Program-made: the position numbers and the translations under genes
Assembly: GCA_018820315.1 (NCBI GenBank)
Contig: JAHJOQ010000053.1
Span: 1 to 57,997, forward strand
Origin: Candidatus Zixiibacteriota bacterium
GTDB lineage: Bacteria; Zixibacteria; MSB-5A5; JAABVY01; JAHJOQ01
Reading direction: 5' to 3'
DNA: 57,997 nucleotides
Shown: positions 19,367 to 22,025 of the stretch, piece by piece
How the letters are laid out: the number at the start of each line of letters is the position of its first letter
Numbering within the stretch: the first letter of the stretch is position 1
The notes under the pieces: generated by a model
What the model saw: only the letters and a program-made list of their open reading frames with translations
Databases searched by the model: none
What the model was told of the DNA's origin: nothing

Positions 19367-20059
19367 CTACCTCTTGAGTCGCTCAATCTCCTGACGGATT
19401 TGTTCAACCACTTCTTTGTTACTGATTTCTTCTTTTTGACTAAACACTACGAATACTTTACCCCCATATTCAGCTTCGAAGTCAGCGAAGCTGGCCTTCA
19501 TCCTCTCAGATGGTGAATAATTAGCAAAACTGAATTTCGCTGTGACTGGCTTAATCTGAATGCCGAATGCTCTATCACCTATTCTTGCCAAATAATCAAT
19601 ATCACCGGCGTGATCCAACTCTGCATCACTCTCTTGAAAAATCACATCTGGGAAGAGCTTTGCCAATCCATCGTTGACCACCGACTTCTCCCGCAGAAAA
19701 CCGTCAAAGGTTCTATTAATAGTAAGATTGTAAATATAGTCATCGCAGTCCTGACGCGTCAAGTGTCGGAACGCTGCTTGCCACTCGGGAATCACTACTG
19801 CTGTTATCTTTTCATATAATCTCTCGCCCAACTCCCGCAGGCTCTCACGGGTTACTTTGGTTGGCGTTTTGGCTGCTGTGTATGCCTTTTCGAAATACCA
19901 CTCTTCCCATTCCTCAATCGTCCCTGGTTGACAGTCTCTTATAAGGGCCATCACAGTACCAACTTTGTTGGGTCGCGATAATTGATAAGTTTGACAAGCA
20001 TAGTTCAGAACTTTCTCTTTCTTGCCAAACTCCATTGAGTACTTCCGCGTATTATCCAT
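19367..20059 (-). CDS. Type II restriction endonuclease, MjaI-like
   Basis: The protein is 230 residues from ATG 20059, overlapping the methyltransferase gene by 8 nt. It has a helical N-terminal half and a C-terminal PD-(D/E)xK-like core, seen as HAGDIDYLARIGDRAFGIQI then K, a D...QxK variant. As I recall the family, it matches the MjaI type, which acts at CTAG. Close coupling to the methyltransferase supports a cutting partner. The last residues are a long helix (NKEVVEQIRQEIERLKR). Base composition of this pair looks more AT-rich than recA or alaS around it, suggesting recent acquisition. Confidence 0.72.
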   Translation of the reverse strand: MDNTRKYSMEFGKKEKVLNYACQTYQLSRPNKVGTVMALIRDCQPGTIEEWEEWYFEKAYTAAKTPTKVTRESLRELGERLYEKITAVVIPEWQAAFRHLTRQDCDDYIYNLTINRTFDGFLREKSVVNDGLAKLFPDVIFQESDAELDHAGDIDYLARIGDRAFGIQIKPVTAKFSFANYSPSERMKASFADFEAEYGGKVFVVFSQKEEISNKEVVEQIRQEIERLKR

Positions 20060-21341
20060 TTGCTTCTTCCGCCATTTTCTGAAACCTGTTTTTGAACTTG
20101 TAATCCATATTGTTGTCCACATCTACCAGTCCTGCTTTGATTAGGTGGGCATTGATAAAAGTCCTATTTTTCAAATACAAATAACACTGCAAATTGCCAT
20201 CGCCATGATACTTACAGGCATCAAACTTCAAGAAGACCTTCTGTCCGGTTGTTCTCTCAATCAGGAATTGTACAGCCTGTCCATGAACTGATTTCTTCTC
20301 CCTAATACCGAGTAACCGAACAAGCAAGCCGTTGTCGAGTTTTAGCATCTCGGGGCTGATTACTTCTTTGATGGAAAAGTACTTCTCTGGATCTCCGCCG
20401 TCCTTGTCAATTCTCGATCCGAATTGGAGTTTCTTAGGATCAATCTTCTTGTCGAGACTATGTGGATCTTTGAAGAGATAAGGTAGTCCTTCAATCTCTC
20501 CCGACAAGTCGGAGCTCACACTGTCTTTCAGAAATACAAACTCGGTTCCCGCTATATCGGTCTGTGATATATTCAGCTTTCTTTCTATAATCGGAATGAA
20601 TTCAGGGTTTATTTCATACCCGACGGAATTGCGACCAAGATTATGGGCCGCCAGCGATGTAGTCCCACTACCGAGGAACGGGTCCAGTACTGTATCACCA
20701 ATAAAAGCAAACATCTTGATCAACCGCGACGGCAATTCCTCTGGAAACATTGCGATATGACCATCCTGTTTTGCGCCCGCAAAATACCAGTGGCCGGAGA
20801 AGTAAGTATTCCACTCTTCCTTGGTCATTGCGGAAAGTTCCTTTTGTTCTTTTGTTGGCTTCGGGGGTTTGCCCTGCTTCTTGAAGAGGAGAATAAATTC
20901 ATAGTCAAGCTTTAGAATCCCGTTTCTCGGATAAGGGAAACTCCCCATGATAGTCGCACCACCTGTGGTATTAGTTGTTGTAACTTTCTGCCAGATTATT
21001 GCTCCCATGTAATCGAAACCAATGATCTCACAGAATTTGATTATCTCGGTGCGAATTGGGATTACCTTATATCGTCCATAATAGACTGATCGAGCGAATT
21101 GGTCTCCGACATTTATGCAAAGCCGACAGCCGGGATGCAATACCCTATGACATTCGTTCCAGACGAGATTCATGTTGTTTATGTAGCTCTCATAAGACTC
21201 GTAATAGCCGATCTGGTTCACCACTCCATAGTCTTTCAATTGCCAGTACGGCGGTGATGTGATTATCAGATGGACAGATTCGTCTGATAGCAGATTCATT
21301 TGCCTACTATCGCCATCGACTATTCTGTGTGTGGTTCTCAA
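20052..21341 (-). CDS. DNA methyltransferase (beta class, N4C/N6A) with C-terminal SNase-like domain
   Basis: The protein is 429 residues. Catalytic motif IV, TSPPYW at 28-33, comes before the AdoMet motif DPFLGSGTT at 220-228, the beta-class order; SPPYW suggests N4-cytosine activity. Residues about 325-428 look like a staphylococcal-nuclease fold (LLVRLLGI, AVQFLIERTTGQKVFLKFD, CYLYLKNRTFINAHLIKAGL). The nuclease residues are mostly gone: Arg342 aligns with SNase Arg35, but Asp40, Glu43 and Arg87 equivalents are Arg347, Lys350 and Asn383. It is probably a DNA- or partner-binding module. The start is TTG, with GGAGG 6 nt upstream. It protects the site cut by the next gene. Confidence 0.85.
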   Translation of the reverse strand: MRTTHRIVDGDSRQMNLLSDESVHLIITSPPYWQLKDYGVVNQIGYYESYESYINNMNLVWNECHRVLHPGCRLCINVGDQFARSVYYGRYKVIPIRTEIIKFCEIIGFDYMGAIIWQKVTTTNTTGGATIMGSFPYPRNGILKLDYEFILLFKKQGKPPKPTKEQKELSAMTKEEWNTYFSGHWYFAGAKQDGHIAMFPEELPSRLIKMFAFIGDTVLDPFLGSGTTSLAAHNLGRNSVGYEINPEFIPIIERKLNISQTDIAGTEFVFLKDSVSSDLSGEIEGLPYLFKDPHSLDKKIDPKKLQFGSRIDKDGGDPEKYFSIKEVISPEMLKLDNGLLVRLLGIREKKSVHGQAVQFLIERTTGQKVFLKFDACKYHGDGNLQCYLYLKNRTFINAHLIKAGLVDVDNNMDYKFKNRFQKMAEEANG

Positions 21342-21362: not shown

Positions 21363-22025
21363 CTATTCTGTTGTGTCGCCGCGCTCTTCCCGCTCAAATC
21401 TCTCGGCTACACGCAGGATAACATCCGAGTTAAAGCCTCGGTACCGCAGAAAATTGTGAATTTTCCGTTGTGTGTCAACCCAATTCTCCTGCATTAGCCT
21501 CTGCCTGCGGCCTAATAGCAGCTTGAACGCGAGCTCCGCTTCGTCCGTTCCATCGAGTTTCTCACGCACAACCGCTTCGGCCGTCTCTTTGTCAACGCCT
21601 TTGGATCGAAGCTCTATCACGAGAAGTCGCCCGCTGCGAGGTTTGAGCCTAAGCCTGGTCTCAACCCAGCTCTCCGCGAATTTCCGGTCGCCGAGCAGGT
21701 CTTTACCACAAAATTCCTTGACCAATGCCTCAATATCTGATCGGGAAAACCCTCTCTGCCTCAGTTTGTCCGCAAGTTCCTTCACAGAATGTGGCCTGCG
21801 GGAGAGGAGTCTGTACGCAGTGTCACGCAGCTTGCGTTCGTCAAGGGCAGCCGCAAGACTCTCATATTCGGATGACGAGAGCTTTCTCCCCTGCTGAAGT
21901 CCGAAGTTGGCGATCAGATCTGCGGTAAGAGAGACGAGAAATTTTCCGTCCACGTAGACGGAGTATCTGCCCTGAACTCTCTTCGAAGGCTTGATCGACG
22001 TTACTACATGGCTTGATTCGGACAC
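21363..22025 (-). CDS. recX: RecX-family regulator of RecA
   Basis: The protein is 220 residues and mostly helical, with repeated three-helix units: DTAYRLLSRRPHSVKELADKL, RQRGFSRSDIEALV, then FAESWVETRLRLKPRSGR, and a last unit IHNFLRYRGFNSDVILRV. RecX binds RecA filaments and limits their extension. It follows recA after only 3 nt and must be cotranscribed. An N-terminal extension (about 1-55, with VYVDGKFLVSLTADLI) is usual in longer RecX proteins. Confidence 0.88.
   Translation of the reverse strand: MSESSHVVTSIKPSKRVQGRYSVYVDGKFLVSLTADLIANFGLQQGRKLSSSEYESLAAALDERKLRDTAYRLLSRRPHSVKELADKLRQRGFSRSDIEALVKEFCGKDLLGDRKFAESWVETRLRLKPRSGRLLVIELRSKGVDKETAEAVVREKLDGTDEAELAFKLLLGRRQRLMQENWVDTQRKIHNFLRYRGFNSDVILRVAERFEREERGDTTE

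Follow-up and report, generated by a model that had tools for sequence, protein, structure and literature searches.

The C-terminal tail of a beta-class DNA methyltransferase (MTase) from a restriction-modification (RM) system has a predicted staphylococcal nuclease (SNase) fold, as shown by profile searches and a structural model, and to judge from its residue content it is most likely inactive as a nuclease. This tail marks a large MTase clade in many phyla, and the genes of these MTases almost always directly precede an RE_MjaI endonuclease gene. The protein was analyzed in the window, by which we mean the whole 57,997-nucleotide stretch of DNA under study. Its open reading frame is real, runs on the minus strand from 21341 to 20052 with a TTG start after a GGAGG site, and encodes 429 amino acids. 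Residues 1 to 275 (20517 to 21341, minus strand) form the MTase core, which matched Pfam PF01555 (N6_N4_Mtase) with an E value of 2.9e-44. The closest solved structure was PDB entry 2zie, both in a sequence search (E = 1.9e-57) and in a Foldseek search with the full-length model (E = 1.1e-22). Motif IV (TSPPYW, residues 28 to 33, with SPPY at 29 to 32) precedes motif I (DPFLGSGTT, residues 220 to 228); this order of an S/DPPY motif before an FxGxG motif, together with the profile match, is that of beta-class N6_N4_Mtase enzymes, and the SPPY form would fit N4-cytosine methylation. A linker with the conserved motif DKKIDPKKLxFGSR (residues 276 to 317; 20391 to 20516, minus strand), delimited by conservation in 95 homologs and by the C termini of tail-less relatives, leads into the degenerate SNase-fold tail (residues 318 to 429; 20055 to 20390, minus strand).

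The cognate endonuclease gene of the RE_MjaI family (19367 to 20059, minus strand; PF09568, E = 1.8e-26) is directly adjacent, which makes the pair an MjaI-type RM system. From its likely ATG at 20057 to 20059, the endonuclease gene overlaps the MTase stop codon at 20052 to 20054 (ATGGATAA). The original prediction of a restriction-system beta-class methyltransferase was supported, the RM system being of type II. From the endonuclease family we infer that the enzyme is of the CTAG type and that the system has m4CTAG specificity. The RM pair (19367 to 21341) is located between alaS and recX (21363 to 22025, minus strand), the latter being the upstream neighbor of the MTase and lying outside the pair. 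Because recX is directly followed by alaS, leaving an empty site, in G001, G002, and G003, all three belonging to the same family, the RM pair constitutes an insertion. The nearest relatives of the MTase were found in Nitrospirae, Deltaproteobacteria, and other groups.

When searched alone, the window protein matched the SNase profile PF00565 marginally (E = 0.0019, 19.1 bits with a cut-off of 21) and the NCBIfam profile NucI with an E value of 1.6e-4. PF00565 was matched by all 56 aligned homologous tails, with a best E value of 8.5e-10. A phmmer search of the PDB with the single tail yielded no match, and the family profile was needed; its sole match was the thermonuclease 3sr1 (E = 0.01). 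The genome's own intact SNase was matched both by the whole protein (E = 7.6e-4) and by the tail profile (E = 1.4e-6). This protein (L105, 1324 to 2004; G000:C39) is the one ordinary SNase of the genome; it keeps the GIDTPE and DRFGR catalytic motifs and carries a hydrophobic N-terminal segment. An AlphaFold2 model of the tail, built from the homolog alignment, had a mean pLDDT of 82 and showed strands and helices in SNase order. The matches listed for this model in a Foldseek search of the PDB were all SNases (E values from 2.7e-7 to about 1e-6), with TM-scores of 0.62 to 0.76, mostly 0.65 to 0.75. The SNase match of the tail is beyond chance, and fold and profile similarity both place it with PF00565. 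A degenerate SNase-like domain after the MTase core had been predicted originally, along with a Foldseek comparison with SNase structures as its check; the profile matches, the AlphaFold2 model, and the Foldseek search made with it support this prediction. The alternative of a typical target-recognition domain was rejected, as the predicted fold is that of SNase and the tail-less relatives are intact.

Five SNase positions (Asp21, Arg35, Asp40, Glu43, and Arg87) were inspected for the active site. The window tail has Glu331 in place of Asp21, Arg347 in place of Asp40, Lys350 in place of Glu43, and Asn383 in place of Arg87, and it retains the arginine of the Arg35 position as Arg342; the three substitutions at 347, 350, and 383 and the kept arginine had been named correctly beforehand. 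Among the 95 homologs, the Asp40 position is occupied by Lys in 78 and Arg in 9, the Glu43 position by Lys in 39 and Pro in 27, the Arg87 position by Asn in 61 and Arg in 9, the Asp21 position by Glu in 66, and the Arg35 position by Arg in 65 and Lys in 28. An intact Asp40/Glu43/Arg87 set, and hence the full set of an active SNase, was present in none of the 95. Therefore, the loss of catalysis is an old and fixed property. The family has a conserved pattern of its own instead, with FGS, K347, K377, D379, N392, T394, N397, and H399 invariant or nearly so. The tails are basic, with a mean net charge of +5.2 over 112 amino acids; the corresponding mean is +0.9 over 274 amino acids for the cores, and the genome's own SNase domain has a net charge of -3.

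The MTase-SNase fusion is old and is found in many bacterial phyla. The best 80 loci in genome contigs all carried the tail, in a search that favored tail patterns. In the window's phylum (133 genomes), 19 of 21 RE_MjaI loci adjoin a tailed MTase, and the other two (G008 and G070) adjoin divergent untailed MTases. A second phylum-level sample of 396 genomes contained RE_MjaI in 63; by a hand tally from contig coordinates and fetched loci, the gene stood beside a tailed MTase in about 44 cases and beside other MTases in 9, the rest being undecidable. Untailed MTase/endonuclease pairs are mostly convergent, as is the case for M.MthZI on pFZ1, and none of the untailed pairs scanned gave an SNase match. 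Across many phyla, the tails are 46 to 65% identical to the window tail and share invariant columns. The survey of MjaI-type MTases proposed with the original prediction thus found the tail to be clade-wide in many phyla and not universal, being absent from M.MthZI and the convergent pairs. Neither the G008 pair, with an untailed MTase of 52% core identity, nor the MthZI system has such a tail, so the domain is no general requirement of MjaI-type systems. A scan of viral contigs found no relative; the plasmid matches listed span the core only, and among phage matches a few extend to residue 370 with 23 to 27% identity.

Several loci with unusual gene structures were observed. In two of them (L037, 2707 to 4005, and L057, 74 to 1399), a stop codon splits core and tail into two consecutive open reading frames with the endonuclease still present, reflecting either a split gene or a sequencing error. 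Partial, rearranged MTase copies lie near the intact gene in Chlorobiaceae and relatives (L039, 354 to 5031; also G263, G371, G446, G454, and G330); these copies often break near residue 139, and the pieces in L039 are 95 to 97% identical. An MTase of G490 (L241, 984 to 4971) combines a core like that of the window protein (62%) with an unrelated extension of some 150 amino acids at its C terminus; next to it lie another MTase and a pair of RE_MjaI genes on the opposite strand. Three further homologs (G194:C2:17911-18741, G263:C7, and G330:C20) matched only residues 154 to 429 in frames of 302 to 320 amino acids; their N-terminal half is missing or different, and one of them adjoins an endonuclease.

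Nine MTases within the clade have a visible C terminus and no tail (G088, G092, G025, G091, G087, G021, G036, G295, and G411). All nine retain an intact core and end at the same boundary just after the FGSR linker; the tail therefore appears dispensable for a maintained MTase. RE_MjaI was found in none of their genomes (0/9). After removal of identical cores, the endonuclease was adjacent in 103 of 122 tailed MTases, about 15% being without it, and endonuclease remnants were seen behind five more tailed MTases (L009, L024, L031, L051, and L071). The G490 MTase was not counted as plain tail-less in the set of nine due to its unrelated extension, G041 and G054 were kept outside the counts since their contigs end at the decisive point, and the MTase core of G532 is masked with N and unreadable. 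A candidate endonuclease remnant behind the tail-less MTase of G295 (E = 1e-4, 32 amino acids) proved too weak on reading and was not used. On the tree, tail-less rows occur at scattered positions: the best tree has nine changes, and starred branches force at least four, with G490 and both split genes included among the tail-less. The association between tail and endonuclease was not significant on well-supported branches alone, where four independent pairs are too few, and a single tail-less clade within the window's phylum was not rejected (AU test, p = 0.062). After phylogenetic correction, the association is suggestive.

The endonucleases of tailed MTases belong to three RE_MjaI subfamilies with mean identities between subfamilies of 21 to 37%, and one of the three is similar to endonucleases from untailed systems. 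Where MTases share 96% identity in the core and 91% in the tail, their endonucleases can belong to different subfamilies and be only about 35% identical. Near-identical tailed MTases with endonucleases of different subfamilies (about 35 to 40% identity) were also observed for L085/L079, L076/L047, L073/L047, and others. As these sequence comparisons indicate, the endonuclease is repeatedly exchanged behind a kept tailed MTase. Specific co-adaptation of tail and endonuclease was tested by partial correlation and came out weak: tail distance followed endonuclease distance beyond core distance with a partial r of 0.16, a value reached in 4 of 999 permutations, and this may be plain linkage, as the tail adjoins the endonuclease gene. 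Because endonucleases of about 35% identity stand behind tails of 91% identity, a finely fitted contact between tail and endonuclease looks unlikely.

We tentatively favor the reading that the inactive, basic SNase/OB module helps the MTase to hold nucleic acid and to methylate completely when the cognate endonuclease is present. The tail would have lost cutting and kept nucleic acid contact without sequence specificity. Such contact could add DNA affinity or residence time, by which the MTase would reach the near-complete site methylation needed where sites left unmethylated would be cleaved by the cognate endonuclease. Once the endonuclease is lost, incomplete methylation would be tolerated, and the domain could be lost at its boundary, leaving the core intact. 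Orphan type II MTases show incomplete methylation, unlike the MTases of RM systems (PMC4752239). From the net charge and by analogy, we infer that the tail may be a nonspecific DNA-binding MTase tail working like that of CcrM; the full-length model leaves its orientation to the DNA cleft unfixed. That the tails tolerate endonuclease swaps would fit binding to something other than one particular endonuclease surface. This reading is further supported by the fold, the basic charge and the lost catalytic residues of the tail, by its long-standing linkage to an RE_MjaI gene, and by the missing endonuclease of the nine tail-less MTases. Against it count the tail-endonuclease association falling short of significance on well-supported branches, the single tail-less clade left unrejected by the AU test, the roughly 15% of tailed MTases with no endonuclease alongside, and the untailed MTases of the G008 and MthZI systems.

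The main rival is an endonuclease-binding or regulatory role, which we consider possible though doubtful. Here the tail would be an interface that binds the endonuclease, or the mRNA or DNA of the gene junction, and would delay or limit restriction until methylation is done. The lack of an endonuclease with the tail-less MTases of the clade would fit such a role, as would the weak partial correlation and the overlap of the endonuclease reading frame with the 3′ end of the MTase gene, seen in the window and at most loci. However, the correlation is open to the linkage explanation given above, near-identical tailed MTases accept strongly diverged endonucleases, and these come from three subfamilies including one like that of untailed systems. 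Rather unlikely in our view is the further idea that the dead SNase is a dedicated accessory of the RM MTase that gates restriction: it would sense or bind DNA, RNA, or the endonuclease, let restriction start only once methylation is complete, and be kept only while the endonuclease is present. If true, type II RM systems would have a mode of timing that has so far gone undescribed. A purely structural tail, serving MTase dimerization or stability with no nucleic acid contact, also seems unlikely. The most conserved stretch (residues 384 to 402) takes in positions of the fold core, within a strand and a helix, and besides Arg342 no nucleotide-binding residue is clearly kept, as a structural role would allow; however, the tail-less relatives retain a conserved core, and the tail is basic with conserved Lys positions at 347, 363, 372, 377, 393, and 402. 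That the tail is a passive relic, an SNase gene fused by chance and lost with the endonuclease in single 3′-end deletions, is very improbable: one deletion could remove both neighbors, but the tail is conserved across phyla down to invariant columns, and it persists in the five loci that retain endonuclease remnants. That the tail still cuts, by way of a rearranged active site, can be dismissed almost entirely. Such activity would fit the SNase fold, the Arg or Lys kept at the Arg35 position, and the 9 of 95 homologs with Arg at the Arg87 position; however, 87 of the 95 have Lys or Arg in place of Asp40, and Glu43 is mostly replaced by Lys or Pro, so no calcium site would be expected.

RM methyltransferases are usually pictured as a catalytic core with a target-recognition region. 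In the open-access literature we found no paper on an SNase domain fused to the DNA methyltransferase of an RM system, in agreement with the original prediction, which knew of no described case; the tail is clade-wide across phyla and not an oddity of one genome. Domain databases may already show the SNase-MTase architecture without comment, as Pfam detects the tails. An inactivated nuclease carried by a widespread MTase branch, and kept mainly with the endonuclease, offers a natural experiment on RM methyltransferases, which must methylate completely, versus orphans, which need not.

The CTAG N4-cytosine MTases M.MthZI, M.MjaI, M.BfaI, and HVO_0794 share the beta-class N6_N4_Mtase core with the window MTase. 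M.MthZI, whose core is about 34% identical, likewise adjoins an MjaI family endonuclease but has no SNase match, and its gene does not precede the endonuclease gene but is convergent with it. CcrM resembles the window MTase in being a beta-class MTase with an extra C-terminal domain outside the catalytic core; however, CcrM is an orphan MTase and its C-terminal domain does not have an SNase fold, whereas the domain described here goes with an endonuclease. Published CTAG MTases have 303 to 364 amino acids (PMC5867850) and are therefore too short for the layout of the window MTase. Thus, the characterized CTAG MTases are without the tail, M.MthZI by our scan and M.MjaI, M.BfaI, and HVO_0794 by published length. 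With the bacterial SNase family (PF00565), the tails share the fold, the order of strands and helices, the Arg35 position, and, in some tails, a recognizable DxxxR loop; they differ in their fusion to an MTase and in the replacement of Asp40, Glu43, and usually Arg87. SNase folds with mutated catalytic residues have been reused for other roles in Tudor-SN and eTudor domains (PMC7641849), which are eukaryotic, belong to RNA and methyl-arginine biology, and involve no DNA MTase. To these, the tailed MTases add a bacterial case of an SNase fold reused after catalysis was lost.
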